Of a stretch of DNA of 64,000 bases, positions 6,250-26,374 are shown piece after piece. Source of the stretch: Crystallibacter degradans (GTDB taxonomy: Bacteria; Actinomycetota; Actinomycetes; Actinomycetales; Micrococcaceae). Location: assembly GCF_012952295.1 (NCBI RefSeq), contig NZ_JABBCH010000001.1:1-64000 (forward strand). The letters run 5' to 3'. The first letter of the stretch is position 1; each line of letters opens with the position of its first letter. A program made the translations under genes and the position numbers. The notes under the pieces were generated by a model. The model saw only the letters and a list, made by a program, of their open reading frames with translations. It was not told the DNA's origin and ran no database searches.

Positions 6250-7419
6250 TCAGGCGTGCGGCAGGTCAAAGATGGCGCCGAAATCAGTGTCGCGCACATC
6301 CCGCTCCCCGGCCAGCCGGCCGAGCCGGTGCAGCGTTTCCATGTTTTCCGGGGCGTCCATGGCACTCAGCGAGCGGACCTTCTCCGTCTCAGCCAGGTCT
6401 GCGTCCAGGGTCCGGATGCTCTCAGGGCGCAGGTCAACGTTGTACCTCAGGTAGCTCATCAACGGCGTGCCGGCGAGCAGATCGCCGTCGAGCTCGCCCA
6501 CTTCCCGGTCCAGCACCCTGGCGGTGGGGCTGGCAGACATCCACTGGAGCATCGTCTCCTGCAGCACCGCGCAGTCCTGCATCACGGACATCAGCGCGCT
6601 GATGGCGTGGCTGGCGGCCAGTCTTGCCTTGCGAACCGAGGGATCCGACGCCCCGGTGCCGACAGAGACGATCAGGAGCTTGTCTGCGCCGGACTCCCAG
6701 CCCATCCCGTAGCCTTTGAGCGAGGCATACATGAATGCCTGCAGGGCGGGATTGTTGTACGGGCTGACACCGCCGTCCACAAAGTTGCCGGTAATAGACT
6801 CCCGACCAGACGCGCCCGTTATGGTGATGGTCTCCGGTTCAAAGTACGACGGCGCCGCAGTAGACGCGCGGACCACCCGCCACAGGTGATAATCACCGTT
6901 TCCCATCCTGCCGTTCTCCCCTGCCGCAAAATACCTGCCGCTGGGATTGTTGCTCACCGGCCAAGGACTCCCGGTATCCAGACGTTTGAGTACCACCAGC
7001 AGTCCGGTCAGCAGTTCAGAGCTGCACAAGGGGGTGTCCGCGCCGAACAACTGTTTCAACTCGTCAGTCAGCCTTGCCTCGCTGTACTTGGCCCGCAGCA
7101 GGCCCTGGCGGAACAGGCTCCGCTCAAACACGCGGTGCCCCAGGTTGAAGTACTTTTCCCGCAACTCTGCGACGCTCAGTCCCTGGGCCAGAGCCGCTGC
7201 GATGATCGCCCCGGTGGAGGTCCCGGCGATCAGGTCGAAGTAATGGCACAGCCGGAAGTCCTTCCCGCCGCCATGGCGGTCCCGGAGCAGGTCCTCGACC
7301 TTTTCCAGGATGCCGAGGCTCAGAATCCCGCGCAGGCCCCCGCCGTCGAGGGCGAGAATCCGCTTGGGCAGGCCGTCCGGATGGAAATGTTCGTCAAGAG
7401 TCAAAGTCTGGTATGCCAT
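6250..7419 (-). CDS. Patatin-like phospholipase
   Basis: 389 aa, cytosolic, no signal peptide. The oxyanion loop DGGGLRG (25-31), nucleophile elbow GTSTG (Ser68) and catalytic DGG (Asp215) are intact, so the Ser-Asp dyad for hydrolysing membrane phospholipids is present. The overall form (GGG-x-R-G near the start, LHRLGRLAGERDVRDTDF at the end) resembles bacterial effector patatins such as those used in anti-phage systems rather than secreted lipases. It follows the TIR-nSTAND-WD40 gene by 36 bp and precedes the small repeat protein by 15 bp, forming a probable three-gene operon. No CD-NTase is nearby, so this is not a standard CBASS locus. Confidence 0.92.
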   Translation of the reverse strand: MAYQTLTLDEHFHPDGLPKRILALDGGGLRGILSLGILEKVEDLLRDRHGGGKDFRLCHYFDLIAGTSTGAIIAAALAQGLSVAELREKYFNLGHRVFERSLFRQGLLRAKYSEARLTDELKQLFGADTPLCSSELLTGLLVVLKRLDTGSPWPVSNNPSGRYFAAGENGRMGNGDYHLWRVVRASTAAPSYFEPETITITGASGRESITGNFVDGGVSPYNNPALQAFMYASLKGYGMGWESGADKLLIVSVGTGASDPSVRKARLAASHAISALMSVMQDCAVLQETMLQWMSASPTARVLDREVGELDGDLLAGTPLMSYLRYNVDLRPESIRTLDADLAETEKVRSLSAMDAPENMETLHRLGRLAGERDVRDTDFGAIFDLPHA

Positions 7420-7455
7420 GGTCCTGGAGATCCTTCCTACCGCGTTGGTGTTGCG

Positions 7456-10400: not shown

Positions 10401-11717
10401 GGCAGTGCAGTCGGCCAACAGCCGGTCCACCAGGGCCGGCTCCAGCGTCAGCGGATGTCCGGCCGCCGTGGCTCGGGCAGCGGGTCCGAGGATGACCTCT
10501 TTGAATTGGACCACGGGCATCGGTTTGAGCTCGTCGAACACAACGCTTTTAATGCCGGCCAGTTGCGGGGCGGTCTGCAGCGCCTCGTAGAAATCGGCGC
10601 GGATGGTGCTGGCCACGATGAGCGCCGGCCCGGTGCCGTCGTCGTACTCAAGCAGCCGCGCCACCAAGTCCAGGAAGCCGGCTGCCTCGGGGCCCGCGTC
10701 CGCGTTGAAGAGTTCCTCGGCCTGGTCGAGCGGCAGCACAAGTGTGGGCGCCGGTGATTCCTCCAATGATTCAGGGTCCTCAGTTTCCTCCGGAGCCTCC
10801 TGCAGCCGTTCCGCAGCAACGTTCCGGGCTTCCATCAGCCATTCCCGGATGCGGTCGGTGTTGTTTCGCACGCAGGCTTCCTTGATTTGCCCCAGCGACG
10901 GATGCCTCAGCCCCAGCCCGGTGCGCAGCTCCTGTATGGCGCGGGCGAACCCCTGCTCTCCGGTGAGTGCGCTGCGCTCCGGACGCACTATCTCCAGCGG
11001 CAGGAAATGACGGTCCTCCCGCCGCAACCGCGGCAGCAGCCCCGCCCGCAGGAATGAGGACTTGCCTGTGCCGGAGGGGCCGAGGATCACGAACAGGGAC
11101 TCCACCCCGGAACTGCGCATCCCCCGCAGAGCGTCGAGACCCCGGACAATCTGCCCGTCCCTGCCGAAAAACACCGCCGCGTCCGTTTCCTGCAGCGGCT
11201 CCCATCCCCGATAGGGGGCCCGGTCCGGATCGCTCGACGGCGGCCAAGCGAAATGTTCCGCTCCGATCCCGGCCTTCCGCAACCCCCGTCGCAACTGTTG
11301 CAGCGCCTCTGTACGAAAGACGACGACGCCGGCCGTTCCGTTTGCTTCAATCGGGATCTCGGTAGCCGGACCATCACCGAACAGGTCGCAGCGCTGCCAC
11401 TCGCGGGTAATGCTCTCCACAGGTTCGAGCCGTGCGCACAGGATCAGCTTGCCGAGATTCTCCGCCGTCCGGTACTCGGTCAGGCATTCGCGCGAGGATT
11501 CCCAATGAGCCGAGATCAGGCAGATCACCACCTCGCAGCGCTCGTTGGCCCGACGCAGTGCCTCCTTCCAGCGCTCACCCGGTGCGATGCCTGTATAAGG
11601 GTCCAAGTCCAGGAAGATCTCGTCCTCCAGCCCCGGCACCTGCTCCACGAGCCAGCGTTTCAACGCGATGGCCTGGAGGCTGTCTCTGCTCGAATGGCTC
11701 AAGAAGACGCGAGACAT
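7456..11717 (-). pseudogene. TIR-nSTAND-WD40 protein, frameshifted in one WD repeat
   Basis: One gene split by a single-base loss near 9017-9021 (frame 1: 11717-8934; frame 2 continues to 7456). The joined product would be ~1420 aa. N-terminal TIR domain (SRVFLSHSSRD; Trp72, Cys78 and Glu81 fit the NADase W-x5-C-x2-E pattern); nSTAND ATPase with GRD entry motif, Walker A GPSGTGKSS (~211) and Walker B-like LVLPLDQAEELF; an alpha-helical region; one membrane helix (~680-704, VLRMVLAVTAVIALVAVLGF); then 14 WD40 repeats from ~790. The STAND/WD40 part would sense a trigger and the TIR part degrade NAD+ (family knowledge). As it stands translation ends after the second complete WD repeat, so it could be broken, a sequencing error, or reversible. 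First gene of the operon with patatin. Confidence 0.85.
9017..9021 (-). other. Frameshift site in the WD40 region
   Basis: A C5 run (plus strand) where the parallel repeat at ~9146-9156 has GCCGCCGG. Compare CTCGCCCCCGAAACAATG here with CTCGCCGCCGGAAACAATG there: one base is missing. Restoring it joins IVSG to GEDGTVRLWGAESG and rebuilds a perfect WD repeat. Confidence 0.8.
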
Positions 11718-11927
11718 GTTCTCACCCCTGGTTCCGTGCGCAGAAGCACTTCTAGCGGTGGCAACCGCGAGCGGGTACCACCGTTCAGTTCATCAGGGGA
11801 GCGTTACTGGGGCGTTACGGCCCCTCCTTGCACCAACATACGGTAGCGGTGAACAAGCGCGTCCTCGACAACGCCGGGCCCTCACGCACGCCTCGGCCGC
11901 CCAGTATGTTCCGGCTGGTGAGCCTGT
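11718..11927. other. Intergenic region between hipA and the TIR gene
   Basis: About 210 bp. Contains only a weak inverted repeat (CGGTGG / CCACCG around 11755-11785). It presumably carries the promoter for the minus-strand TIR-nSTAND-WD40 operon. Confidence 0.3.
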
Positions 11928-13184
11928 CTAGTCCTGCCGGAGCCGATCGATCTGGCCTTTGACCAGCGTGGGAATGTCCGCCGGTACGGACGGGAACCGC
12001 TCCGTCGCCGTGTCGAGCGCAGCGTCCAGCCGGTCAAGGGTCTCGTCGACCGTCTTTTCCGCCATCCGCCGCGGGATACCCCAGGCAGCCCCTTCATCGG
12101 CCAGATGGCTGCGGGTCATCCGCGTGATGTTCTCCATTCCGCCAACCCAGAGGCCCGCGGTCACGGTCGCGGGAAGGAAGGCCAGAGTGGGCACGACATC
12201 GTAAAGCGGTGAGACCGTCAGCCCACCCGGCGTCAAGAGAACAGAGGTGTTCTTGGCATGGGCATCGGCATTGCATAGTGCTATGTTGACGATGACCTGG
12301 CGCAGCAACACCTGCAGCTGTTCACGCGGGTTGCGGGCATACTGGCGCAGGACCCGTGAAATCTTGACCAGGGACGGCCGGACGGCCGGAGTCCCGTCCT
12401 CGTTTTTCACGCGCGAGTCCGAGTACTTGGCCAGCGGCGGTGAGCCGAGCATCTGGCAGCCGTCTTCCTGGTGGATCCGTCTGGTGCCCCCGTTCCCGGG
12501 TTCCCGGTCGTAGCGGGTGACCATCAACGCCGGCCTGCCTTGGGCGCTGGCTTGCAGGGAGACCTCGGCGGCCGGCGTTGCGGCGGACGCGACGGTCATC
12601 GCCCAGCCCTCTGCGGCGGCCATGCCCGGATACTCGATCTTCTCCGGCTTGATGATGTGGGTGGACAGCGCCCCTTCAAGCGGCAGTGCCCACCCCTCCA
12701 GTGTCCGGGCAAGCAGCAGCTTGGACTGGACCCCGCCGAGCGAGCTGCGGACCACGCCGCCACCGGCCACGGGCCACTGCGGCAGGGTATCCAGCCGTGC
12801 GGCCACCTCATCGTCGGTAAGGGGCTGGTAATGCCCGCCTCTGTTCGGCTTGAAGCCTTCCGGTCCGACGGCGACGGCGCCGGCACACTCCCAGCCGATG
12901 GCTTCCAACAGGGCGAAGTCATCGTAGGCGGGAACTCCTGCCGCTGCCGCTGCGGAAGCCCGCTGTTCGCCTTCAGGCAGCAGGTTCGCGAACCAGTTCC
13001 GCGTTGGCACGGGCCCGACTGGCTCGGCGGCCACCGGCAGGGAGCAGGAGAGCAGAGGCTGGCCGGCATGGCGGGTCACGGTTTCGGGAGTGTAGCTGAA
13101 GGTGGCGCTGCGGTTGCGGTGGATCTCGATGCGTCCGGTCAGCTGGCCGTGCAGGAGGACGTCGAGCCGGCGGACGGCAGGCAT
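11928..13184 (-). CDS. hipA: HipA-family serine/threonine kinase toxin
   Basis: 418 aa, the normal HipA length. N-subdomain (RRLDVLLHGQLTGRI, FANLLPEGEQR), the P-loop-like autophosphorylation segment SSLGGVQSKLLL, the HIIKP lysine strand, catalytic loop NADAHAKN and metal-binding SPLYDVVP are intact. HipA kinases phosphorylate tRNA synthetases and halt growth unless bound by HipB. The ATG overlaps the hipB stop (ATGA). No lesion is visible, so this is the one apparently functional toxin-antitoxin module in the island. Confidence 0.93.
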   Translation of the reverse strand: MPAVRRLDVLLHGQLTGRIEIHRNRSATFSYTPETVTRHAGQPLLSCSLPVAAEPVGPVPTRNWFANLLPEGEQRASAAAAAGVPAYDDFALLEAIGWECAGAVAVGPEGFKPNRGGHYQPLTDDEVAARLDTLPQWPVAGGGVVRSSLGGVQSKLLLARTLEGWALPLEGALSTHIIKPEKIEYPGMAAAEGWAMTVASAATPAAEVSLQASAQGRPALMVTRYDREPGNGGTRRIHQEDGCQMLGSPPLAKYSDSRVKNEDGTPAVRPSLVKISRVLRQYARNPREQLQVLLRQVIVNIALCNADAHAKNTSVLLTPGGLTVSPLYDVVPTLAFLPATVTAGLWVGGMENITRMTRSHLADEGAAWGIPRRMAEKTVDETLDRLDAALDTATERFPSVPADIPTLVKGQIDRLRQD

Positions 13185-13435
13185 CAGCTGCCCTCCGCTC
13201 CGTTGCCGGAGGCCGGCGTGCCTTTTGGAGCGAGGGCAAAGTAGCTGCCCAGGATCTCCAAGGCCTTCAGCGCAGTATCAAGGGAGACACTGCCGGATCC
13301 GTTCTCGAAAGCGATGATGGTTCCGCGCGAAACGCCTACCCATTCGGCCAGTTCGCCCTGGGTCATACCCTGCGCCTTGCGCTGCTGGCGCACGTAGCGG
13401 CCAAAATCGGCCGCACCGTAGCCCGGTACCCACAT
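13184..13435 (-). CDS. hipB: HipB-type HTH antitoxin/repressor
   Basis: 83 aa with a single Xre/HTH_3 domain (YVRQQRKAQGMTQGELAEWV, SRGTIIAFENGSG). It is expected to bind the palindrome upstream and to hold HipA inactive. AGAGGG precedes the ATG by 4 nt. Translation is coupled to hipA by the ATGA overlap. Confidence 0.9.
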   Translation of the reverse strand: MWVPGYGAADFGRYVRQQRKAQGMTQGELAEWVGVSRGTIIAFENGSGSVSLDTALKALEILGSYFALAPKGTPASGNGAEGS

Positions 13436-13448
13436 ACTGCCCTCTCAC

Positions 13449-13511
13449 TTTGTCGCCTATTTTGAACATTACGACAAAGAAGCGCGAATGTCCAAGATAA
13501 TGGACATTCGC
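13449..13511 (-). promoter_or_regulatory. hipBA promoter with palindromic operator
   Basis: GCGAATGTCC-N8-GGACATTCGC (13484-13511) is a perfect 10-bp inverted repeat. Its core TGTCC-N8-GGACA has the geometry of the E. coli HipB operator TATCC-N8-GGATA. Read on the minus strand, TTGGAC inside the palindrome is a good -35 and TAATGT 18 nt on a plausible -10. A second inverted repeat TTTGTCG/CGACAAA spans 13449-13478. Autorepression by HipB is inferred. Confidence 0.65.
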
Positions 13512-13588
13512 TGGTGTGGACCTAAATGCCCAACATTATGAGCATCGCACCGAGTTCCTGGCACACCGGCAGGAACTCCTGCCCGGCC

Positions 13589-14629
13589 CTATTCCGTATG
13601 TCTTTTACCGCCATCTCCTGCGGAGTCGCGCTCCGGCGGCCGGTAGCCGGCGACAGCGGCGCGGATATCGCCCTCTTCGTGCCCGCCCTTCTTCTTGCCG
13701 AACGGCAGCACCTTCAGCAGCGGGTGCAGGATGGCCATGATAACGAGGCCCCACGCGAGTCCGAGGACAGCCGAGCACAGGGTGTTCACGAGCCAGGCTA
13801 GGAAGCCACCGGCCACCGGGATCCCGGCGAACGGGCCCTCGAGGACGTGGACCAGGTCGTACGGCGCGTGCCAGCCGAGGGAATATACCCCCTGGAGCAT
13901 GATGTGCCCACCAACCCAGAGCATGGCAATCGTCCCGACGAAGGTGATCGCAGCGAGCACGGCGGGCATGCCCTTGACGAGCAGCGCGCCAAAGCGTTTC
14001 GCGCCCGCGGAGTTTTTGGTGGTCAGGTGCAGGCCGATGTCGTCCATCTTGACGATGAGCCCGACGGCGCCGTAAACGATCGCCGTAATCGCAATCGCCA
14101 CGACAACCAGGATGAACGCCCGGACCCACAGCGACTCGGTGGCTACCTCGTTCATCGAGATGACCATGATCTCGCAGGACAGGATGAAGTCGGTGGTGAT
14201 CGCGCCCTTGGTGACCTTAGCCTCCGCCTCAGGGCCCCGTTCGACCGCCGGCGTGTGCTCGGCCTCATGGTCACCACGGACCTTGTGCCAGACCTTCTCC
14301 GCACCCTCGTAGCAAAGGTAGGTGCCGCCCAGCATGAGGATGAACGGGATGATCACCGGGATGAAGGCGCTGATAAGCAGCAGCGCCGGAAGGATGATCA
14401 ACAGCTTGTTCCGGAGCGAGCCCCAGAAGATCTTTTTGATCATCGGCAGTTCGCGGGACGGGTCCGCCCCGGATACGTACTGCGGAGTCACAGCGGCGTC
14501 GTCGATCACCACACCGGCGGCCTTGGTCCCGGCCCTGGCGGCACCGGCAGCGACGTCGTCCACCGAGGCGGCCGCTATGCGGGCCAGGGCTGCGACGTCG
14601 TCCAGCAGGGCAACAAGGCCGCCGCTCAC
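13589..14629 (-). CDS. DUF808 (YedI-like) inner-membrane protein
   Basis: 346 aa. It begins SGGLVALLDDVAALARIA, the DUF808 signature, and carries several hydrophobic helices (LLIILPALLLISAFIPVII, AFILVVVAIAITAIVYGAV, AVLAAITFVGTIAML, LGLAWGLVIMAILHPLL) plus the conserved GAITTDFILSCEI segment. I placed the start at GTG 14629 because GGAGA lies 6 nt upstream. The family is widespread with no settled function. It sits between hipBA and the mfd fragment without an obvious operon partner. Confidence 0.85.
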   Translation of the reverse strand: MSGGLVALLDDVAALARIAAASVDDVAAGAARAGTKAAGVVIDDAAVTPQYVSGADPSRELPMIKKIFWGSLRNKLLIILPALLLISAFIPVIIPFILMLGGTYLCYEGAEKVWHKVRGDHEAEHTPAVERGPEAEAKVTKGAITTDFILSCEIMVISMNEVATESLWVRAFILVVVAIAITAIVYGAVGLIVKMDDIGLHLTTKNSAGAKRFGALLVKGMPAVLAAITFVGTIAMLWVGGHIMLQGVYSLGWHAPYDLVHVLEGPFAGIPVAGGFLAWLVNTLCSAVLGLAWGLVIMAILHPLLKVLPFGKKKGGHEEGDIRAAVAGYRPPERDSAGDGGKRHTE

Positions 14630-14735
14630 AGATCGTCTCCGCAATGCACGACGGCGGACTGATGGTCGTGGAGGTCACAGTTGACGCGCATGATCAGCAT
14701 GCTTTGAGTATATGACGGCGGGCGGCCCGGCTGGC

Positions 14736-14870
14736 AGCAACGCGGCGCGCAGTCCCGGACACGCGCCAAGCTGCGGATCCTCGCTGCGCTCGCACGCCGG
14801 CCGGAATGCGTAAAGCCGCACCCCCTCGAAGGACTTATCTTCACCGAGGGCAGCGTGCATTCCGCAGTCA
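14736..14870 (-). pseudogene. mfd: Decayed duplicate of the mfd 5' end
   Basis: The minus strand encodes LGEDKSFEGVRLYAFRPAC then ERSEDPQLGACPGLRAALLP, colinear with Mfd residues ~9-47 (LAEDKSFERVRLYASRPAG then ERSEDLQIGAPPGLRAALLA). By eye the DNA matches mfd over ~130 bp without gaps at about 85% identity, in the same orientation. It lies in a short ORF (14675-14881) that runs into unrelated sequence. It is a direct repeat with the true mfd 5' end 10.6 kb away. Confidence 0.85.
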
Positions 14871-14884
14871 CAGCCCTCCAACCG

Positions 14885-15095
14885 CAGCTACGGGGCTGCC
14901 TAAAAGACACCGAAACTGATTATTGACAGCGTCAGATGGGCGGCTGGACAATATGGGAACGAACGTAATCCATGTCTTTATTGAGCATTTCCCACTCTGT
15001 CAGGTGACCCGAACACGCCATCTGGTGATTGTGAAAGTCCCTGTATCCGGCAGCGGCCTTGCTGCACTTTATTTCGCTGAGTCCAGGGGAAAACT
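14885..15095. other. Intergenic region before the four-gene operon
   Basis: About 210 bp between the mfd fragment and the plus-strand operon. It should hold the operon promoter; no convincing boxes or hairpin found. Confidence 0.3.
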
Positions 15096-16013
15096 ATGCG
15101 TGCCAGCGTTCAAGATTATTGGTCCACTTTTAATGCTCCGCTCGAGGGCCGCGTTCCGTTCATGTACCTCGATGTCAAAGGGTTCGTCAGTACCGGCGTC
15201 GGGAACCTGATAGATGCCACTGCACGGGAACTCTCGCCACCGACACCGGCCGAACGTGAGGCATCGTTGCGAATTACCCGCGCTATAGCCTGGCAACGAA
15301 ACGGCAGCGGTCCGGCTGACCCTGCAGAGATCGATGCTGAGTGGGACAGAGTGAAGGCCCGAATGGATCTGGCACCTAGAGGCGGCGGGCATTTCGCTCC
15401 CCCAGTAACCACCCTGCACATCACGAACCAGGAAATTGATCGGATCGTGGATGAAAAGCTACATCAGATGGAGACCCTGCTCAAGGGCAGGTCGGATTTT
15501 GCCTCTTTCGATACCTGGCCTGCAGACGCGCAATTGGCCCTGCTCAGCATGTCCTGGGGCATGGGTCCCATGTTCAGATTTCCCAGGTTTCAAGCGTTTG
15601 TATCGCAGAGGAACTGGACGGGTGCTGAGGCCGAGTGCCGGTTCAACCCGGAAGTCGGAACAATTGTCACGCGTAACAACCTCAACCAACAATGTTTCCG
15701 GAACGCAGCCCGAGTAGATGCAGAAGGCCTTGATCCAGAAGTGCTGCTTATCAGCAACGGTTCGCAAGGGCCGGTGGTCCCCGACACTCTGATTGACTTG
15801 GCGACGGTAGCTGGAATCCAGTCGGCCCTCACAGCGCTCGGATACGATCCGGGTCCAATCGATGGCATCAGCGGCAGCCGGACCACCGCAGCTATCCGGC
15901 AATTCCAGACCGATCAGGGTCTGGCCTCAGACGGCATCGCCGGCCCTAATACGCGGGCCGCTTTGGCCGCAGCGCTTGGTCAGCTCGGCATTCAATCGGT
16001 AAATGGAGGTTGA
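15096..16013 (+). CDS. Lysozyme-like (GH24-type) protein with peptidoglycan-binding domain
   Basis: 305 aa, no signal peptide. The N-terminus (EGRVPFMYLDVKGFVSTGVG) matches the T4-lysozyme pattern: Glu17, Asp26 eight residues on, then Ser32/Thr33 in place of Thr26, so muramidase activity is plausible. The C-terminal ~60 residues (IQSALTALGYDPGPIDGISG, TTAAIRQFQTDQGLASDGI) are a PG_binding_1 domain. AGGGGA lies 5 nt before the ATG. It is the first gene of a tight plus-strand operon; the stop is 3 bp from the next start. Lack of an export signal suggests holin- or lysis-dependent release or an assembly role (inference). Confidence 0.8.
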   Translation: MRASVQDYWSTFNAPLEGRVPFMYLDVKGFVSTGVGNLIDATARELSPPTPAEREASLRITRAIAWQRNGSGPADPAEIDAEWDRVKARMDLAPRGGGHFAPPVTTLHITNQEIDRIVDEKLHQMETLLKGRSDFASFDTWPADAQLALLSMSWGMGPMFRFPRFQAFVSQRNWTGAEAECRFNPEVGTIVTRNNLNQQCFRNAARVDAEGLDPEVLLISNGSQGPVVPDTLIDLATVAGIQSALTALGYDPGPIDGISGSRTTAAIRQFQTDQGLASDGIAGPNTRAALAAALGQLGIQSVNGG

Positions 16014-16016
16014 AGG

Positions 16017-16775
16017 ATGAACGCCTTCGACTTGGAAGTGAGCAATCCCTTCCCTGCCGGATATGACCGCTCCTATGGAGGCCCGGGGCAGGGAGGACAT
16101 GTTTCGGAGCACTGGTACATTCAGTACGGCATGGATCTCGGCGCTCCGGGTGGCACCGGGGTACACGCGGCCTTCGGCGGACATATCACCAGATTGAATA
16201 CGCAGAATATCAATCTCTCAGCCGGCAAGGTCTATGGGGCGGAAATCTTTATGCGTTCCCATAACGATCGAATGGGAGCGTTCTTCACGCATCTGAACAG
16301 CCTGCCCACGGGTCTGTCACAAGGTTCGCAAGTCACCCGGGGACAGCCGCTGGGACAAGTCATCGCCACATCTACGCCCCACGTACATATGGCGCTGGTT
16401 GAGATCGTCAACGGCCAGTATGTGGGAGTCGATTTGTATCAGTTGTTCCAGTCGACGGCGAACACGACGGACACTTTCACCGTCACCTTCCACCAGGACG
16501 GCACAACGCCGCCTTCCTACGGAGGCGGCACCAACGGCGGAACCGGCGGATTCGGGGAGTTTGGCACACTATCCACTGTGTACGAGATTCAAGGTGCGCT
16601 GATCGCGCTCGGCTATGATCCCGGTACGCGGGACGGCATCAGCGGGCCCCGAACAACAGCGGCCATCATGCAATTCCAAACGGCCAACGGCCTCGTTGCC
16701 GATGGCCTGATAGGCCCGATAACCCGCGCAGCCATAGGCGCGGCTTTGGTTGCCGCAGGCCTGATCCCGGGCTGA
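16017..16775 (+). CDS. M23-like peptidase domain protein with peptidoglycan-binding domain
   Basis: 252 aa, no signal peptide. The M23/LytM-like core is visible: YGMDLGAPGGTGVHAAFGG then QVTRGQPLGQVIATSTPHVHMAL. The HxH zinc pair (PHVHM) and the metal-binding Asp are kept, but the first canonical histidine (H-G-x-D) is tyrosine here, so catalysis is doubtful. A glycine-rich linker leads to a PG_binding_1 domain (IQGALIALGYDPGTRDGISG) closely similar to that of the preceding gene, so the domain was probably duplicated within the operon. GGAGG overlaps the preceding gene's end. Confidence 0.8.
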   Translation: MNAFDLEVSNPFPAGYDRSYGGPGQGGHVSEHWYIQYGMDLGAPGGTGVHAAFGGHITRLNTQNINLSAGKVYGAEIFMRSHNDRMGAFFTHLNSLPTGLSQGSQVTRGQPLGQVIATSTPHVHMALVEIVNGQYVGVDLYQLFQSTANTTDTFTVTFHQDGTTPPSYGGGTNGGTGGFGEFGTLSTVYEIQGALIALGYDPGTRDGISGPRTTAAIMQFQTANGLVADGLIGPITRAAIGAALVAAGLIPG

Positions 16776-16860
16776 GCCTGGTTGCCGGTCCTTCCAGGAC
16801 TAGTCGACCTGGGTGAAAACGGCCGGAGAAACGCTTTCGCGACTATCCGAGGAGCGCATC

Positions 16861-19830
16861 ATGAGCGGCAGCTACCGTTTCGGTGTCTTTCGTCCCGACG
16901 ACCTGCTGGTGCTTGAATTCGAGTTCCATAACGTGGATGTGGCTGACGATGGCCGCGCGGTCGTACCCCGCCTGGACACGGGCGGTGCATTCGCCGTCGT
17001 ACGTTTTCCACCTCAGGCGATTGCCGAAGAGGTATGGGACGGACCTGTAGCCAGGCCGCCTATCCGCACCGCCCTTTCAGGTCCTACACGTTTGGTGTTC
17101 CGTTTGCCCGCAACCGGTACGCCGGTCCCGCTGACCGTCGAGGGACTGCTCGATTGGACAACCTGGGAGCCGGCACTCTCCGCGGCGGCGCTGCCGCGCG
17201 GAACAGCACCGGAGGAAGCAAGCCCGGAGTTGTCGCCACCGGATGATCTGGAAACGGCCATCGAGTTCCCCCATCGCCTGCTGCTCTCACCGGACGCTCT
17301 GGGGCGGTGGCGGACGCTGCGTGGCACTATCGAGGTCGGGGACACGCACCAACTGTGGAGTGCGGTGCTACATACAGTAGATAACGACGGCGATATCAGC
17401 CAGGGCGCCGACGTCCGCGCGCTTGCGGACCGCACCGGACCTACACCGTTCAACTCTTCACTGACGGACAACGAGCGGCACCAGATTGTTCAGCTCAGCT
17501 CCAACTTCCGAATTGCACTTCCCCCAGATGCCCGGTACACACCGGTTCCGATCAAGGCGAACAAACTGGAGCTGACCGCGCTGGGCGCAAACGCAGACCT
17601 CGAGAGCGAGTGGGATTTTCCCTTGCTACCGCCCGAAGAGTTGCAAGGCAGCGGCATCGAGCCGCTGGGGCTTCGTCAATACCAGCACGTTGCTGCCCTG
17701 GGCCGTGACCACGTCGTCCGGACGGTGAGGCTCGGCTTTCTATGCGGAACCGGACACCGGGCAGTACTGGTGAAAACCGTCGAACGGCTCCCGGACGGTA
17801 TTGAAGTAGTTGGACAGGCGCCGGGCGGCGGCGCGCTGTTCAGCTCCAGGGGCTACCTGCTGCGGAAATTCGAAGTGGTGGTCCAGGAACCCGTCATCAA
17901 CTACGGTCCATTGGCCAAGGCATATGCCTACGAAGGCCGCGAGTTTCCGCTGAACAGCATCCGCCTCACGACAACGTCTGCAGGAATTGATCCACCGCCG
18001 GAAGATTACGGACCGTTCTGGCTGCTGGATCCGGAGCGGAACCTGCTGCACTTCAATGCCACCGGCACTGATCTCACCGGCAATGCCCTGGATTTCACCC
18101 TTCCTTTGATGTTCGTCCCCTACGACAGGATTGACCGTCACCGGACCATCGCCGCCGTATTCCATAACCAGGATCCCAGCATTGTGGCCACCATCGGGTT
18201 TTCCGGTCGACCTCTGGCCGTTGCCCCACCCGGCGACAGGCCCGGTTCCACGGTCCTGAAGGTGGACACCGTCCGCTACGACATCGAGCAACCACCGCAC
18301 ACCGCCGACCCGGCACCCGCATTTCCCATGAACGCCGCCGGCGCTCCGCGGTCCTACATTCCGCGCTTCCTGCCCCGCATCGCCTCCATCGCCGCATCCA
18401 TCCCTGCCGTGGATGACCTCCTCGGAACGGGCACCGTATCCGAGCTCGTCCCCGACACGGACTACCTGAAGCAGGGGTTCGATAAAGCCGGCAACCCTGC
18501 ACAGACATTTGTGCGGATGCGTGACGAACTGCCGATCGCCCTTCCATCACAACGCGGCGGCGGTTTGGCCAGCCCCGCGCAGAATGCTCAAGCCCTATCC
18601 CGGACGCTCGGACCTGTCTCGTCCCCGGAACAACTGCAGCAGGGGAAACTGGATCTGTCTGCGTTCAAGGATACGAAGTTCCTGGGCACTATCCGGCTGC
18701 TGGACCTCCTACCGGCCGACCTTCCGTTCGATGCCTCCGCAGCCGTCGCGGCTGCCCCTCCAAGTCAGGCCGATCTTGATAACCCTCGGTTCAAGGTCAA
18801 TCCGCCCCGGCTCACCTCCCGCCGTCTTCCCGCAACAGCGGGCGCCGCCCCGGCTGTTGAGTCCAGGTTTATCTGGAAACCTACTCTGCTGCCGGAGTAT
18901 GATTTCGGCTTCCTCAAGATCGGTATGCAACAGGCGGATCTGCTGCTGGATGCCACCACCCGGCTTACCCAGGAAGGCGAGGGCGGCGCCGTCGTTATCG
19001 GGCGGCTGCGGAACATTGAGCTGATCTTCGCCGAGGCACTGAGCGCGGTATTCGGCACACTCTCCTTTCGTGCGGAAGCGGGCAGGAAGATGGAGGTCGG
19101 CGCCAAGGACGTCAAGATCGCCTTCGCCGGGCCATTGGAATTCGTTAACGCCCTGCAAAGTATCCTGCCCTCCGACGGCTTCGACGACCCTCCGTTCCTG
19201 ACCGTCGATTCGCAAGGGGTTGTGGCCGGATACACTCTCGGCGTGCCGAGCATCGGCGTGGGCATCTTCAGCATCCAGAACATCGCCCTTACCGCGGCCT
19301 TATCAATCCCCTTCACTGACCGTCCGGCCGGAGTGCGGTTTGCGGTCTGCGAGCGGCACAAGCCCTTCCTGCTCACTGTCAGCCTCTTCGGCGGGGGCGG
19401 GTTCTTCGCTGCCGGTGTGAGCGCCAACGGTCTGGAACAGGTCGAGGCGTCGCTGGAGTTCGGCGGCAATATCAGCCTGAATCTGGGAGTCGCTTCAGGC
19501 GGCGTCTCCGTGATGGCCGGAATTTACTTCGGACTGACCGGTACCAGCGTCACCCTCACCGGTTACCTCCGGTGCGGCGGGTATCTGGATGTGCTCGGAC
19601 TGATTTCCATCTCACTGGAGTTCTACCTGGCATTCACCTTCCGCAAGAAAGACCCTGGCAGCGAAGTTTGGGGCCAGGCGAGCCTGACCGTCAGCGTCAA
19701 GATCGCCTTCATCAGCAAGTCGATCACCTTATCGGTGGAACGCCGATTCGCCGGATCCGGCGGGGATCCAACGTTCGCCCAGTCTGTCCGGCCTTCCGAC
19801 TGGGTCGCTTATCTTCAGGCGTTCGCCTGA
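16861..19830 (+). CDS. Large beta-rich protein of unknown family (989 aa)
   Basis: No named domain recognised and no signal peptide. I placed the start at ATG 16861, where GAGGAG sits 6 nt upstream; an earlier in-frame start at 16813 lacks this. Notable segments: IEFPHRLLLSPDALGRWRTL near residue 145, FNSSLTDNERHQIVQLSSNF, ALGRDHVVRTVRLGFLCGTG, and a glycine/serine-rich C-terminal third with alternating hydrophobics (FGGGGFFAAGVSANGLEQVE, FGGNISLNLGVASGGVSVMA) that looks like a beta-solenoid or barrel. The FPHRLLLSP-type segment recurs, from memory, in uncharacterised large bacterial proteins. Third gene of the operon, 85 bp after the M23-like gene. Confidence 0.85.
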   Translation: MSGSYRFGVFRPDDLLVLEFEFHNVDVADDGRAVVPRLDTGGAFAVVRFPPQAIAEEVWDGPVARPPIRTALSGPTRLVFRLPATGTPVPLTVEGLLDWTTWEPALSAAALPRGTAPEEASPELSPPDDLETAIEFPHRLLLSPDALGRWRTLRGTIEVGDTHQLWSAVLHTVDNDGDISQGADVRALADRTGPTPFNSSLTDNERHQIVQLSSNFRIALPPDARYTPVPIKANKLELTALGANADLESEWDFPLLPPEELQGSGIEPLGLRQYQHVAALGRDHVVRTVRLGFLCGTGHRAVLVKTVERLPDGIEVVGQAPGGGALFSSRGYLLRKFEVVVQEPVINYGPLAKAYAYEGREFPLNSIRLTTTSAGIDPPPEDYGPFWLLDPERNLLHFNATGTDLTGNALDFTLPLMFVPYDRIDRHRTIAAVFHNQDPSIVATIGFSGRPLAVAPPGDRPGSTVLKVDTVRYDIEQPPHTADPAPAFPMNAAGAPRSYIPRFLPRIASIAASIPAVDDLLGTGTVSELVPDTDYLKQGFDKAGNPAQTFVRMRDELPIALPSQRGGGLASPAQNAQALSRTLGPVSSPEQLQQGKLDLSAFKDTKFLGTIRLLDLLPADLPFDASAAVAAAPPSQADLDNPRFKVNPPRLTSRRLPATAGAAPAVESRFIWKPTLLPEYDFGFLKIGMQQADLLLDATTRLTQEGEGGAVVIGRLRNIELIFAEALSAVFGTLSFRAEAGRKMEVGAKDVKIAFAGPLEFVNALQSILPSDGFDDPPFLTVDSQGVVAGYTLGVPSIGVGIFSIQNIALTAALSIPFTDRPAGVRFAVCERHKPFLLTVSLFGGGGFFAAGVSANGLEQVEASLEFGGNISLNLGVASGGVSVMAGIYFGLTGTSVTLTGYLRCGGYLDVLGLISISLEFYLAFTFRKKDPGSEVWGQASLTVSVKIAFISKSITLSVERRFAGSGGDPTFAQSVRPSDWVAYLQAFA

Positions 19831-19861
19831 ACCCGGCCCAGACGAATATTGGAGCCAGCAC

Positions 19862-22800
19862 ATGATCCGACACCAGCTCGTGCAGTGGATTCTGCTGCCT
19901 AACGGGCTTACCTCTGACGGCTTCCTGGCTGCATCGGTGTTTATTGCGCCAAGACTACGTCCAGGCCAGGCGGCCACCCTGGCTGATTTTCCGGACTTTG
20001 CAGACTGGCCGGACTTGCTCCGCGAATTAACTCTGAATCTGGAGCGGGGTGACGGGGCCACCACGGCACCGCGGCAAGTCATGGTCCAGGGAAGCAGCCA
20101 GCTATGGCAGGCGCTTTTCGTCCCGACAACCACTGTGCGGGCCTTCGCCTTCGACGACTTCGCGGACCGGCCACTGGTCAGCTATCCAGTGAAGGAAGTA
20201 CTGGGCCATTTACGCAACCGATGGGCAACCCTGGCGGCACGCACCGTGGACGACCTTCCGCTGACCAGTTCGAATGCCTCGCCGATGGATTCCGGCCAGG
20301 AACACCGGGACGCGCCCGTCCTCGCGGAACACTTTGAAGAGCTGCTCCACGTCGGCCGGATGGACGTTTTCGAAGGGGTCAGGAACGGCGAGCAGCTCTC
20401 GGCCAGACTGGAAGAGAGGCTCCGCGATTCTGCCGCCCAGGCCCGCGAACTGCGCCTTCAGCACAGCCACCAGCCGCAGGAGCTGATCCGTCCGTTCGGC
20501 AGCGGGGGAAGTCCGGCCGGAGCGTTTTATGCACTGGCCGGTTTCCATGCACGGCCGGCGAGAGAACCCGCAGACCTTCCGACGGACCGGGAACAGGCCA
20601 GAGCCGCGCTCGAAGAGAAGCTCGATTTCCACGATCATCTCTCCTCGCTGGGCGGCCACCCTGCGGTGCTCCGCGGCCTCGGCCTGGTGCTGGATCTTGT
20701 GGTCGACCCCGGTTTTGTGCCGGTGACCAGCGACAACGATCCGCCGACGATGCTCCGGCTAAGAGTGGAGCGGCCGTCTGCCTTTCCTGCAAGGGAAGAT
20801 CCGAATGCGGAATCATGGAACTGCGACGTCACCCCGTGGACCAGCTGCCAGTTAGCGGAAATCGAGGGCTCCGCTTTCTTCAACGCAGCCGAGCGGACCC
20901 AGCGCAGGGATTTCACCCACGGGTTCCTGCATCTAGACCCCCAGCGGTACGAAGCGGCGGCGGTGGATGTCGACGGCCTTGCGCTCAAAGCCCTGAAGAT
21001 GGCAGCCACCTTGCAGAACCAGGAGAACCGGGAGCAGCGGCCACTTGAAGAACCGGAGCGTGACGGCGTCCCCGCTGCCCGGACCGGCGGGGTCGCCCTG
21101 GTGCACGCCGGCCAGGCAGAGGACCTGCACAACGACTTCTATCAGGCCCGCGCAAACAACGACATCCTGGAGCAAGACCCGGACCACCCACCGGTCCTAG
21201 CCGCCGAGGACTTGATCCGCGGATACCGGATGGATATCTGGGCCGCCGGGCATTGGCGTTCCTTGCACCAGCGGCAAATGACCTACACCCCGGCGCGGGA
21301 TCCGGGCCTGTCCTTCGATACCGACGACGAGGGTAGCATCGAGCTCTCGCTGACCGGAGATATGGGCTCCACCGGCCAGCCTGCCGACCCTGATGGCGCG
21401 CTCTACGCTCATGAAACCCTGGTGACATGGGACGGCTGGAGCCTGTCGGTTCCGCGGCCCGGAGAGGCCGTCCTGCAGGAACCGCCGGCACCGGAGGCTG
21501 GGACGGATATTGGCAGCATGCAGCTGTCCATCTCCACTTCTCCGGCCCCTGAAACGCTGCCCCGGCTTCGGTTCCAGGACAGATACCGGACCCGGCTCCG
21601 GGTCGTGGATATGGCCGGCAACTCGTACAGCCTGCCGGACGCCAGCAGTTTCAGCGACATCCTGGACGGAACCGGGCGCCCGGAATACGTCACGACGGCC
21701 CCGTCCGACGCGTTGCCGTACCTCCGCTTCGAGCCGGTTCCACCGCCGGAACTTGTGCCCAGGCATCCGTTCAATCCCGGCGAAGGTCTGGAACGGCTGG
21801 TCATCCGCAGCACGCCCGGACAATCTGCCAGCGACTACGCGCGCTCCAGCGAAGCAGCCGCAGGCACGGCCTACAGCTTCCGTGACTTCTGCGACCGTCA
21901 CCTGGCTGCGGCGAAATCCTCCCTGCAAGTGTGGGAGACCCACGGCATGCTTGACGAGGCCATCGACGCCGCCCGCGGCATGCCCGCGCCCGAGGCCGAA
22001 TCACGGGTGCAAGGTTTTTATGACATTGCCGTCCGCGAGAGCGGCACGTTCCGGGACAGTCTGGGGGCAGAGTTCAACGCCACCGGAAGCCACAATGGGG
22101 AACCCCAGGGGTACGTCACGATCGACGCTGACGCGGTGGACCTTCCTTACCTGCCTGACCCGCTCTGTGCGGGTGCCAAGATCCGGGTACGGCTGCACCC
22201 CGGCGAAGCTGAAACTGTGCTTGACGTTCCCTTCAGCTTCGCCGCCGGAGCCGGCTTGCATCAGCCGTCGCCGTTGCGCCTGCGGCTGGAGGAAGGCGAT
22301 TACCATGCCGGCTATGACGGGAACCTGGTTACTGTCCGGCTTCCTGCTGGCCGTACATGCCGGCTTCGCCTGTCCTCGCTGCTTGGCGGAGACCCGGACT
22401 TGTTGGGGATCATGGGCTGGTGCCGCAGCGAGCTCGGACAAACCGAGTCCGACGTCGTGTACGAGGCGATACGGAACAGCACCCACTGGATGACAACCCC
22501 ATGGCGGGACCTGGTCCTGGTCCACGCCGTCCAGCGCCCGCTGGATCCCCCGTCCCTGGCCCTGAACGCAATTGATTTCCACGGATTCCGGGCCCTGGCA
22601 CGAAACAGAGGCGGCACGGCTGCGGATCTGGAAGGCGAACTGGACTTTGACCTGGCGTCCACGGCCCAGCTGGACCTCTTCGCCTCATGGGACGACGTTG
22701 TGGACGACCCGCAGAAAAAGTACCCAACCGCCCAGCACATGGTCCATTCGGTGCACCGGGATGTCTTCTCCCTCCCGGTACCCGAGCCGTTCGGCACTCC

Positions 22801-24058
22801 CTGGATCCCCGAAGTGGCGCCGCTGATCGAGCCGCGCGACGAACGTACTGTTGCCTTCCGGACCCGCGGATGGGAGAACGAATCCCCCGAGTCCCGACGC
22901 CTGCAGCTTCTCGCCGACAGCGCACAGCCGGGTCTGCCCGCCGTTGAACGGCGCAGGCTGGAAGCCGGCGCATCCCAGCTGGAGAAGTTGCGGTCCCACG
23001 AGTTCGGCGACCCCAGGTACCGGCGGGTCTCCTACTTGCCAACTGCCGCCACCCGCTTCCGCGAATACTTTGATCCGGCCATGCCTGCCGCAGACGGCCA
23101 GGCGGCCGGCGTGCCCGTGACCGTCGACATCCTCAACAGCGCGCCGCCGGCAAAGCCCGTGGTGCAGCAGGTCTTACCGCTCATGGGCTACGCCCAAACC
23201 CGGGAGAACGGCGATGGAATTACCAGCACGCGCAGCGCACTCGGCCTGCGTGTGTGGCTTGCACGCCCGTGGTTCTCCTCCGGCGCCGGCGAAAAGCTTG
23301 CCGTAGTCTGCAACGGCGGAGGACCGCTGACGTATGAAAGCGCCCAAGCACGCGAAATAACGTTCATAGCCCAAGACCCTGCCCATGGCTCGCCGATGCC
23401 GCAGCCACTGACTGCACGGTCTTTCCCCACCGCAGACGCACCACCCTGGGGACAGGTCATCGTGTCCGGCCATACCAGCGACACGGCGCTCTTCACCCCG
23501 CAGTGGGATGAAGACAGCGATGCCTGGTATTGCGACATCCAGTTCGACACCGGGACCGCCTACTTCCCGTTCGTCCGGCTGGGGCTGGCCAGATACCAGC
23601 CAATGTCAGTTCCCGGCTGCGAAATGTCCCCCATTATTCCCACCGCATTCGTCCAGACCGTGCCCAACCGGAGCCTCACCACCTTTCCAGCCGCAGACGG
23701 CACCATCGCCGTGTCATTGACCGGTCCGGCTCCGTCGTCATACCGCGACGCCCAGGGAAGCACTATTGCTGGGACAAACCTGGTAACGGCCGTTGTGGAG
23801 GAGCAGGATCTGCGCATCGAAGACCCGTACATCGGCTGGGAGCCTGTTGGCGCTGAAACCGAACTCGTCGCCCTCGTGAACCAGGACGGAACCACCACTT
23901 GGTCGGGCGCCGTACAGGTGCTGGACCCGGAGGAAAGGAAACTACGTCTGGCCGTTCACGAGTATGAACTGCACCCCGCCGACGACCTCAGCGCTGAACC
24001 GCCCGCCAACTTGGTCGCGAGCCGTCGGCTCGTCCATGCCGACGTTGTACCGCTGTAG
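19862..24058 (+). CDS. Very large protein of unknown family (1398 aa)
   Basis: Starts 31 bp after the 989-aa gene with GGAG 7 nt before the ATG. The N-terminus QLVQWILLPNGLTSDGFLAA then SVFIAPRLRPGQ is followed by DFPDFADWPDLL. No catalytic motif, transmembrane segment or signal peptide is obvious. It is rich in acidic residues, prolines and short beta-like segments. Middle region: RDFCDRHLAAAKSSLQVWET and PCAG-free beta stretches; later WVDVP-like repeats are absent, so it is not a simple repeat protein. Size and adjacency suggest it works with the 989-aa protein as a pair, perhaps as parts of a particle, scaffold or large effector. Function unknown. Confidence 0.85.
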   Translation: MIRHQLVQWILLPNGLTSDGFLAASVFIAPRLRPGQAATLADFPDFADWPDLLRELTLNLERGDGATTAPRQVMVQGSSQLWQALFVPTTTVRAFAFDDFADRPLVSYPVKEVLGHLRNRWATLAARTVDDLPLTSSNASPMDSGQEHRDAPVLAEHFEELLHVGRMDVFEGVRNGEQLSARLEERLRDSAAQARELRLQHSHQPQELIRPFGSGGSPAGAFYALAGFHARPAREPADLPTDREQARAALEEKLDFHDHLSSLGGHPAVLRGLGLVLDLVVDPGFVPVTSDNDPPTMLRLRVERPSAFPAREDPNAESWNCDVTPWTSCQLAEIEGSAFFNAAERTQRRDFTHGFLHLDPQRYEAAAVDVDGLALKALKMAATLQNQENREQRPLEEPERDGVPAARTGGVALVHAGQAEDLHNDFYQARANNDILEQDPDHPPVLAAEDLIRGYRMDIWAAGHWRSLHQRQMTYTPARDPGLSFDTDDEGSIELSLTGDMGSTGQPADPDGALYAHETLVTWDGWSLSVPRPGEAVLQEPPAPEAGTDIGSMQLSISTSPAPETLPRLRFQDRYRTRLRVVDMAGNSYSLPDASSFSDILDGTGRPEYVTTAPSDALPYLRFEPVPPPELVPRHPFNPGEGLERLVIRSTPGQSASDYARSSEAAAGTAYSFRDFCDRHLAAAKSSLQVWETHGMLDEAIDAARGMPAPEAESRVQGFYDIAVRESGTFRDSLGAEFNATGSHNGEPQGYVTIDADAVDLPYLPDPLCAGAKIRVRLHPGEAETVLDVPFSFAAGAGLHQPSPLRLRLEEGDYHAGYDGNLVTVRLPAGRTCRLRLSSLLGGDPDLLGIMGWCRSELGQTESDVVYEAIRNSTHWMTTPWRDLVLVHAVQRPLDPPSLALNAIDFHGFRALARNRGGTAADLEGELDFDLASTAQLDLFASWDDVVDDPQKKYPTAQHMVHSVHRDVFSLPVPEPFGTPWIPEVAPLIEPRDERTVAFRTRGWENESPESRRLQLLADSAQPGLPAVERRRLEAGASQLEKLRSHEFGDPRYRRVSYLPTAATRFREYFDPAMPAADGQAAGVPVTVDILNSAPPAKPVVQQVLPLMGYAQTRENGDGITSTRSALGLRVWLARPWFSSGAGEKLAVVCNGGGPLTYESAQAREITFIAQDPAHGSPMPQPLTARSFPTADAPPWGQVIVSGHTSDTALFTPQWDEDSDAWYCDIQFDTGTAYFPFVRLGLARYQPMSVPGCEMSPIIPTAFVQTVPNRSLTTFPAADGTIAVSLTGPAPSSYRDAQGSTIAGTNLVTAVVEEQDLRIEDPYIGWEPVGAETELVALVNQDGTTTWSGAVQVLDPEERKLRLAVHEYELHPADDLSAEPPANLVASRRLVHADVVPL

Positions 24059-24169
24059 CCGAACTAAACGAATGCGGAGCACCCGGTCATCGCCTGTGCC
24101 AGGATGAGCGAGTTGATATCGTAGCTGCCCAGGAGCGGCCTGCCCATCGGCACCGAGGAGCGTGCCAGC

Positions 24170-24440
24170 CAGGTGAAGGTTGACTTGGCCACGGGTGCCG
24201 GGCCATCTCCAGCTTCGTGCCCTCCTGGACCTGCCAAGATCTCCATCAAAATCGGGCTGCGGGTCATGCAGAACACGAACATTATTCTTGATGAGGTGCG
24301 CATCCCAGATACCAAACTGCTGCCCGGCGCCACCGGCTTCCCCGCTAGTCCAGCACGCGTGCTCGGAGCCTCCCAAGGTCAGCTCGGATTACCCGCCCAG
24401 CAAGCCGATCCGACAACTAGGCACAGCGCCTTTCGTTAGC
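24170..24440 (+). pseudogene. Acyl-CoA dehydrogenase fragment
   Basis: The plus strand reads KISIKIGLRVMQNTNIILDE then VRIPDTKLLPGATGF and ARVLG, which resembles the segment R-x-M-Q-N-A-D-I-V-L-D-x-V-R-V-P of glutaryl-CoA-type acyl-CoA dehydrogenases. Neither flank continues the family: no FAD or acyl-CoA site and no catalytic base region. It is about 60 recognisable residues of a ~390-residue enzyme. Confidence 0.5.
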
Positions 24441-25522: not shown

Positions 25523-26374
25523 CTAGCCGGAGTGGTGCGCGTCCTCCGGGTTCTCAGGTGCGTCATCGCGGCGTTCCTTCACCAGCTTGCTGGCGCTCAC
25601 CAGCCGCAACGCGGTCACCAGTACGATCCCGCCAAGCACGTTGAAGACCACTACATAGGAAAACCAGCCGAGCCACTCAAGGTAGTTGATTTCAGCACCC
25701 GCGTGGATGGCACCGAAGATCAGCAGCGAGTCCAGGATCGAGTGGAAGAGCTGCATCCCCGCGAGCAAGAAAGCCCCGACGACGGCGGCCGCGATCTTGC
25801 CGGTGACGCTGTCCGTCCCATGCTGCATGCGGGTCATCAATGTGATGGTGCTCCCACCTAGCACGGCAAGACACACGGTTTCCCAGTTGAATCCGGCGTC
25901 GAGAAAGTGGTTGGCTGCCGTCGTGATGGTCTCGCTCCACTGCGGGAACGCCGTCATGATCAGTGCCATGAACAGCCAGCCGCCTACCAGGTTGGCAATG
26001 AGGGTGCCGCCCCAGAGTTTCCCGAGCTGCGCGTAGCTTGCCTCCCGCGCGATGACCGCCGCAATGGGCACCAGGAAGCCCTCCGTGAACAGCTCGCTCT
26101 TGGCCAGCAGGAGGGCGATGAGGCCGGCACTGAACGCCAGCCCCGCGAGAAGGTGGCTCCCGGTCTCATGGAGCACGCCGAGGTAGGCCATAATGCCAAT
26201 GCCTATCTCAAACCCGCCGAACAGGCCGGTGATGAGCACGTCCCGAAAGGAGCGGTTCAGCCGCTGCGCGCCTTCCTCAACCGTGCGGTCGAAGGATTCC
26301 TCCACCTCCTCCTCCACCGGGCCTGAATTCTCGCCAAGTTCCCGCCGTCGTGCATCGCCTTCGGTGTCGCTCAT
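25523..26374 (-). CDS. Formate/nitrite transporter (FNT) family channel
   Basis: 283 aa with hydrophilic ends and six hydrophobic helices. Recognisable FNT signatures: SFRDVLITGLFGGFEIGIGI, LLLAKSELFTEGFLVPI, GKLWGGTLIANLVGGWLF, HSILDSLLIFGAIHAG. The long charged N-terminus and sequence type are closer to YfdC-like FNT members than to FocA/NirC, so substrate is unassigned. Monocistronic; a strong hairpin separates it from the agmatinase gene. Confidence 0.9.
   Translation of the reverse strand: MSDTEGDARRRELGENSGPVEEEVEESFDRTVEEGAQRLNRSFRDVLITGLFGGFEIGIGIMAYLGVLHETGSHLLAGLAFSAGLIALLLAKSELFTEGFLVPIAAVIAREASYAQLGKLWGGTLIANLVGGWLFMALIMTAFPQWSETITTAANHFLDAGFNWETVCLAVLGGSTITLMTRMQHGTDSVTGKIAAAVVGAFLLAGMQLFHSILDSLLIFGAIHAGAEINYLEWLGWFSYVVVFNVLGGIVLVTALRLVSASKLVKERRDDAPENPEDAHHSG

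Follow-up and report, generated by a model that had tools for sequence, protein, structure and literature searches.

The 64,000-nucleotide stretch of Crystallibacter degradans DNA analysed here (positions 1 to 64,000 of contig NZ_JABBCH010000001.1; hereafter the window) contains an operon of four genes, which encode two peptidoglycan (PG)-directed proteins, PG1 and PG2, followed by two giant proteins, A and B. A and B are a near-obligate pair. In this analysis the A and B families and their pairing match no known system, unlike the export logic we propose for them, which is of an already known kind. We consider it an even call that A and B constitute a two-subunit complex located outside the membrane and exported by twin-arginine translocation (Tat) in part of the family, with the wall-directed PG1–PG2 pair helping the complex of the Arthrobacter-type module to be released or to reach the wall.

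Pairing, distribution and predicted structure of A and B

Relatives of B were found as 365 tblastn-confirmed stretches in 84,980 species genomes, and the best 80 of the 365 were kept as named loci; 102 loci were taken in altogether (L032–L132 and the window, with L039 and L053 being one strain, the same as genome G004). As read from their titles, the best 80 are named records from about 10 phyla (among them Actinomycetota, Chloroflexota, Acidobacteriota/Aminicenantes, Bacteroidota, Balneolales/Rhodothermales, Armatimonadota, Zipacnadia, Pseudomonadota, Bacillota, Verrucomicrobiota-type, and Kapaibacterium/Chlorobiota bins). B relatives occur in 12 of 396 actinobacterial genomes, the window's own counted, and in 10 of 72,556 plasmid records. 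None was present in 50,697 phage records, and viral contigs searched with one B pattern gave four pattern matches, none of which is a relative.

In 98 of the 99 loci with enough upstream DNA, A sits directly 5' of B in the same orientation, counting A as whole, contig-cut, or split. In the three loci outside this count (L044, L050, and L058), the contig ends within 20 bp of B. The match-to-match gap from A to B has a median of 19.5 bp (range −31 to 315). The original prediction for the window, that the two giants belong together, is borne out by this arrangement. Across 55 loci, the pairwise distances among A proteins also track those among B proteins (r=0.90, a value that none of 2000 permutations attained), in line with co-inheritance. 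Very long B open reading frames (ORFs) in L047, L049, and L052 were considered as A–B fusions and rejected, their extra N-terminus being an out-of-frame reading over the A gene. Among 23 long A ORFs compared, 18 have a mutually similar extension of ~400 residues before the A core (L062, L063, L065, L066, L076, L078, L082, L083, L086, L088, L090–L092, L098, L112, L115, L126, and L132). A Pfam scan of the N-terminal extensions of ten A relatives, six of these 18 among them, gave nothing above the curated cut-off. The extension in L118 is propeller-like, by reading.

The family searches proposed with the original prediction left both giants without a curated family or a PDB-sequence match. In Pfam, nothing matches A up to E 1, and B has a single sub-threshold immunoglobulin (Ig)-like match (E 0.031). 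Neither protein matches PHROGs, NCBIfam, PADLOC, or PDB sequences, nor the PDB by profile, and none of the four operon proteins matches PADLOC anti-phage defence up to E 0.1. No description of the A–B pair was found in the literature searched. A giant pair conserved across these phyla is without a Pfam or NCBIfam family.

The model of A, from 61 sequences, has a mean predicted local distance difference test (pLDDT) score of 86.2, with lower values (~56–88) after residue 760. It has seven strands of 12–18 residues within residues 843–964. From residue 776 onward the strands have one hydrophobic and one polar face in sharp alternation, a pattern shared by several N-terminal strands. Foldseek matches of A include ushers, LptD, porins, and lipid-transfer proteins, all with low template modelling (TM) scores and only one below E 0.001. 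That one, the PapC usher, is the best PDB structure match (E 1.6e-4) and was rejected as a relative owing to its TM-score of ~0.1. The model of B, covering residues 199–1398, has a mean pLDDT of 86.0. B has 27 Foldseek matches below E 0.001 (Ig/fibronectin type III (FnIII) ectodomains, alpha-2-macroglobulins, and complement), with low TM-scores; these are generic Ig/FnIII likenesses and were rejected as identities. From the models, A is best described as a predicted "amphipathic beta meander" and B as a predicted "string of Ig-like sandwiches", and nothing further is taken from them.

These features bring to mind an envelope complex that moves lipid or other hydrophobic cargo, the C-terminal sheet of A forming a groove or barrel and B a spacer. 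The strong two-face alternation across consecutive strands 776–964 would suit such a mover, as would the weak Foldseek matches to LptD, microsomal triglyceride transfer protein, lipovitellin, LBP, CETP, OrfX, and porins. These matches, however, indicate only a "long beta meander", because their TM-scores are ~0.04–0.31 and their E values exceed 0.001 except for the PapC usher. The alternation, judged without a null, also extends to several N-terminal strands of A. We hold a lipid mover to be a rather unlikely alternative.

Tat-like signals and adjacent tatA genes

Tat signals were called by a strict pattern, consisting of RR, two hydrophobic residues, and then an uncharged hydrophobic stretch. 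Among the 91 A proteins whose N-terminus is covered, 16 have such a Tat-like signal; a looser motif search flags further A proteins. The strict pattern occurs in one of 99 B proteins (L052), where it falls in an out-of-frame leader, so that genuine cases number 0 of 99. A search of plasmids with A gave four weak matches, of which three were read and are giant members; the fourth is from Agrobacterium vitis. The giant branch, which is rhizobial and roseobacterial, includes Sinorhizobium meliloti HM006 (A 2277 and B 1560 amino acids (aa)), S. meliloti LMB1 (A 3052 aa, B 1766 aa), and Ruegeria THAF33 (A 3311 aa, B 1899 aa). Against the A profile its A proteins reach E 1e-111 to 1e-132, and against the B profile its B proteins reach 1e-39 to 1e-70. 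All three A proteins start with a twin-arginine signal, by reading.

A tatA gene (PF02416) lies 49 bp after B in S. meliloti LMB1 and 227 bp upstream of A in L065, while in L063 a TatA match was obtained by phmmer only; two loci, and perhaps a third, thus have tatA next to the pair. Because relatives carry Tat-like signals and adjacent tatA, A–B is likely to work outside the cytoplasm, which agrees with the original prediction. The accompanying claim that signal peptides are absent is true of the window proteins but not of the whole family. In the window, A has no hydrophobic N-terminal stretch and no Tat motif, B has no Tat-like motif, and no signal is visible in PG1 or PG2, whose N-termini were judged by reading only.

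We propose that A and B would be two subunits of one large complex working outside the cytoplasmic membrane. In lineages where A has a twin-arginine signal and B lacks one, Tat would carry the complex out already folded, B riding along as a hitchhiker; a few loci have a tatA gene of their own. Once outside, the Ig-like string of B could act as a scaffold or binding arm, and the amphipathic C-terminal sheet of A could contact the membrane or carry hydrophobic cargo. Tat hitchhiker complexes, such as Escherichia coli PaoABC (PMC4273604), have one subunit with a twin-arginine signal and a partner without, encoded by adjacent genes, an arrangement resembled by the part of the A–B family in which A has a Tat-like signal. 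They differ from A–B in that no cofactor-enzyme likeness was found in A or B, and from the window pair in that the latter is without a signal. By their longest ORFs, strict-Tat members have A proteins of 114–209 kDa and B proteins of 142–202 kDa. A reaches 246–363 kDa in the giant branch (the largest being 3311 aa and 363 kDa), and A–B pairs span ~260–570 kDa.

A bolder version, which we offer tentatively and hold to be somewhat short of an even chance, is that A–B stands for a widespread and new type of giant protein with two subunits that leaves the cell folded, a Tat cargo far above 150 kDa, sometimes with a private TatA, and that in signal-less lineages a dedicated lysozyme-like and M23-like pair takes over the exit step. 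If A is truly exported by Tat with B, the Tat size limit becomes directly testable with a natural cargo of >250 kDa, and the tatA genes beside the pair suggest dedicated translocation. The Arthrobacter module provides a compact operon for asking if wall-directed enzymes can replace a signal peptide.

Wall-directed proteins linked to the pair

Both PG1 and PG2 have a PG_binding_1 domain at the C-terminus by Pfam, and PG2 has a Peptidase_M23 match. The N-terminal domain of PG1 yields nothing above the Pfam cut-off, including no Phage_lysozyme match, and the best match of PG1 to the PDB by sequence is only E 1.5. The spacing of E17, D26, and Ser or Thr 32 in PG1 (E-x8-D-x5-S/T) nevertheless fits the triad of T4 lysozyme, whose E/D/T positions we take as the catalytic reference. 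E17 and D26 are invariant and position 32 is Ser or Thr in 8 of 8 aligned members, which makes PG1 a putative T4-type muramidase. It departs from T4-type lysozymes (glycoside hydrolase family 24) in the absent Pfam match, the distant PDB match, and the presence of Ser rather than Thr at position 32 in five of the eight members. The canonical zinc ligands of M23 peptidases are H-x3-D and HxH. In PG2, the first ligand His, whose position we take to be zinc-binding, is Gln or Glu in all five members covering it, the window included. The Asp is retained, and HxH is intact in the window, with one His missing in L054. Because of this replacement the label "endopeptidase" is not secure, and PG2 may be inactive or altered in activity. 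The original description of PG1 as T4-lysozyme-like and PG2 as M23-like, each with PG binding, holds for the PG-binding domains, the M23 domain match, and the triad spacing; it lacks a Pfam lysozyme match for PG1 and a secure peptidase activity for PG2. PHROGs matches of PG1 and PG2 are to endolysins, peptidases, and chitinases, together with a weak tape-measure match (E 0.037) to the M23 part.

A phmmer search for relatives of PG1 and PG2 covered every ORF of ≥60 aa in L032–L132 and the window. At least 5 of the 80 named loci have such relatives near A–B, and more may do so given that some contigs are short. Besides Arthrobacter, Georgenia (L054) has a PG2 relative only, on the opposite strand. 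In Methylobacter luteus (L072), PG1 and PG2 are fused and located 3' of B beyond two FG-GAP proteins. Upstream of A, Streptomyces CB02058 (L073) has PG1 followed by genes for an Amidase_2 protein, PG2, and an LGFP protein. In Kitasatospora (L111), a convergent PG1 relative comes immediately after B. An LGFP plus Phage_lysozyme2 gene precedes A by ~0.9 kb in Actinoplanes (L055). Only two of the 396 actinobacterial genomes have PG1 (that of the window and G248), and because it is so rare its linkage to A–B is unlikely to be due to chance, as judged without a formal test. The recurrence in Georgenia, Streptomyces, Kitasatospora, and Methylobacter upholds the predicted hydrolase link.

Beta-propeller or wall-binding proteins (Hemopexin, LGFP, and FG-GAP) also recur near A–B. 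In our own gene call, Hemopexin in L054 overlaps the A start by 4 bp; it is borderline in L038 and on the opposite strand. When neighbouring genes were clustered, the larger clusters resembled common families by reading, and one was an antisense shadow of A; PG, BTAD, and LGFP clusters were among the others. Georgenia L054 encodes an AIM24-family protein just 3' of B (14336–15115). A large same-strand gene 5' of A forms one cluster in Georgenia L054 (1938–4625), Thiothrix L088, and the Anaerolineae bin L095 (2132–6739); of these three loci, Pfam confirmed BTAD, AAA, and TPR in L095 only.

A conserved second operon, consisting of a DUF6603 (PF20248) gene and genes of ~1180, ~1550, and ~560 aa with no named function, resembles A–B in comprising several large proteins without a described function and in having PG1 or PG2 relatives nearby, as is the case in three of the four loci read (L158 being the exception). 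PG1 is ~22 kb from the DUF6603 gene in G248 (~12.5 kb from the operon's last recognised gene) and ~9 kb from it in Streptomyces NBC_01724, and an apparently split PG2 relative is ~2 kb from it in G342. Its proteins differ from A and B in having no sequence relation to them by hidden Markov model; A has no match to PF20248 in a Pfam scan. DUF6603 matches an A C-terminus profile with a probability of 37–48% with 9 sequences and 18–25% with 22, compared with 3–4% for reversed and 0.1–0.3% for ten column-shuffled controls. DUF6603 occurs in 11 of 396 actinobacterial genomes, in 0 of the 12 with B, and in 9 of 50 named A–B genomes (50 of the 80 loci being covered); genome size and kinship confound the comparison of 9/50 with 0/12. 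For A–B, the hydrolase pair is thus a real partner, though an optional one, and it is common to two giant-protein systems.

For the Arthrobacter module, we propose that the export signal was lost or never present, and that the most likely role of the muramidase-like and M23-like proteins would be to open the wall or mark it, allowing the complex to leave or to reach the wall. The PG proteins might instead be a payload, with A–B a delivery or docking device that takes murein hydrolases to other cells as an antibacterial weapon. The hydrolase type varies by locus (lysozyme-like, M23-like, Amidase_2, and Phage_lysozyme2), as expected of interchangeable cargo; PG1 and PG2 are fused in M. luteus; and a weak PG1 relative occurs in a type VI secretion system (T6SS)/RHS locus. 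We consider a payload quite unlikely, given that 75 of the 80 named A–B loci have no PG1/PG2-type gene, all 5 PG2 members covering the M23 site have it altered, and no physical link between A–B and PG1/PG2 was seen. In the T6SS locus, on a Pseudoalteromonas plasmid (L136 11650–12519), the weak PG1 relative lies among VgrG, PAAR, and RHS genes; owing to these neighbours, the lysozyme-like fold may act there as a T6SS effector.

The original prediction had also mentioned tail-like particles and injection systems, though not one of standard type, and a tail-derived or contractile injection particle of unrecognised type could account for a lysozyme-like and M23-like pair without visible signals and for one phage relative of PG1. 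Muramidase-like and M23-like modules without obvious signals do occur together in phage lysis cassettes and in extracellular contractile injection systems. Such a particle is nevertheless very improbable: A and B match no PHROGs family, B is absent from the phage records and from the viral contigs searched with one pattern, and matches to viral predicted structures, searched with A only, are weak, with nothing clear. A PHROGs search of the four operon proteins, with neighbouring window genes outside the search, found no sheath, tube, or baseplate, and none of the four resembles an injection-machine part.

The giants might also be cytoplasmic, with the PG genes as chance neighbours or transfer passengers, as the missing export signals of window A and B and the many loci without PG1/PG2-type genes would allow. 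We judge this unlikely, because relatives have Tat-like signals and tatA, PG1 is rare yet linked to A–B, and PG1/PG2 relatives recur near the DUF6603 operon.

Several observations weigh against a Tat-exported complex aided by wall-directed proteins. In L117 (B at 9995–14233), ~10 kb of upstream DNA contains no A, and a tblastn search with 61 A proteins found none there either. Shared descent alone could produce the correlation between A and B distances. No strict Tat signal is present in 75 of the 91 A proteins, and the calls come from a pattern rather than a trained predictor, on gene starts assigned in this analysis. None of the six hydrolase-linked lineages (Arthrobacter, Georgenia, Actinoplanes, Methylobacter, Streptomyces, and Kitasatospora) has a strict Tat signal, these being too few for significance. 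A–B pairs exceed the Tat cargo "of up to 150 kDa" given in PMC6708511, a further difference from the hitchhiker complexes. Since most loci have neither a Tat signal nor a PG1/PG2-type gene (the latter missing in 75 of 80), the export route of most members is unexplained. The original prediction had tied the giants to each other and to the hydrolases; the giants are apart from each other in 1 of 99 loci, yet they are mostly without PG1/PG2-type genes. PG1 also occurs away from A–B. It has relatives in seven plasmid records. Besides Streptomyces NBC_01724, these are two from Streptomyces xanthophaeus with no A or B match (one read over 24 kb) and weak relatives (25–30% identity) in Pseudoalteromonas, two Klebsiella, and Rahnella. 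One phage record also holds a relative.

The four-gene module and its surroundings

Features of the window operon (window coordinates) and of the second giant-gene operon (locus coordinates)
Feature	Position	Strand	Length or basis
PG1: T4-lysozyme-like N-terminal domain and PG_binding_1	15096–16013	+	305 aa
PG2: M23-like domain (first zinc ligand Gln/Glu, not His) and PG_binding_1	16017–16775	+	252 aa
A: beta-rich giant, predicted C-terminal amphipathic-strand meander ~776–964	16861–19830	+	989 aa from ATG
B: giant, residues 199–1398 modelled as Ig-like sandwich string with helical inserts	19862–24058	+	1398 aa
Discrete module, approximate extent	14736–24439		flank comparison with two genomes of the genus
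DUF6603 operon loci	L138 7873–20142; L156 332–10810; L158 3–12122; L143/L140

The positions, strand, and spacings (3, 85, and 31 bp) of the four consecutive genes are as originally predicted. An alternative GTG start for A at 16813, upstream of the ATG, gives 1005 aa. The window pair has masses of ~106 kDa (A) and ~153 kDa (B). A purine-rich Shine-Dalgarno-like stretch precedes each start. Compared with the other Arthrobacter copy (L053), the ratios of nonsynonymous to synonymous substitution rates are 0.08, 0.13, 0.14, and 0.23 for PG1, PG2, A, and B, respectively, with amino acid identities of 94%, 93%, 92%, and 90%. On the strength of the Shine-Dalgarno-like stretches and these low ratios, we take all four to be real genes.

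B is found in one of nine other genomes of the genus (G004). The left flank gene (13592–14626), which we take to be DUF808-like, is kept in eight of the nine, and the right flank gene (25526–26374) in three. In the two genomes read, G002 and G007, the flanks align up to window positions 14735 and 14721 and resume from 24446 and 24440, respectively. Between them lie 1384 and 1438 bp, 80% alike and without the four-gene module. The operon is thus a discrete module: a ~9.7-kb unit, with little in it beyond the four genes, occupies the place that in these two genomes holds a short conserved stretch of ~1.4 kb of other DNA.

To the left of the module, on the opposite strand (6250–13184, −), are genes for a patatin-like phospholipase and a TIR-nSTAND1-WD40 protein (both by Pfam), a further protein (7456–9003), and a protein we presume to be HipA-like. 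This region looks like a conflict or defence island.

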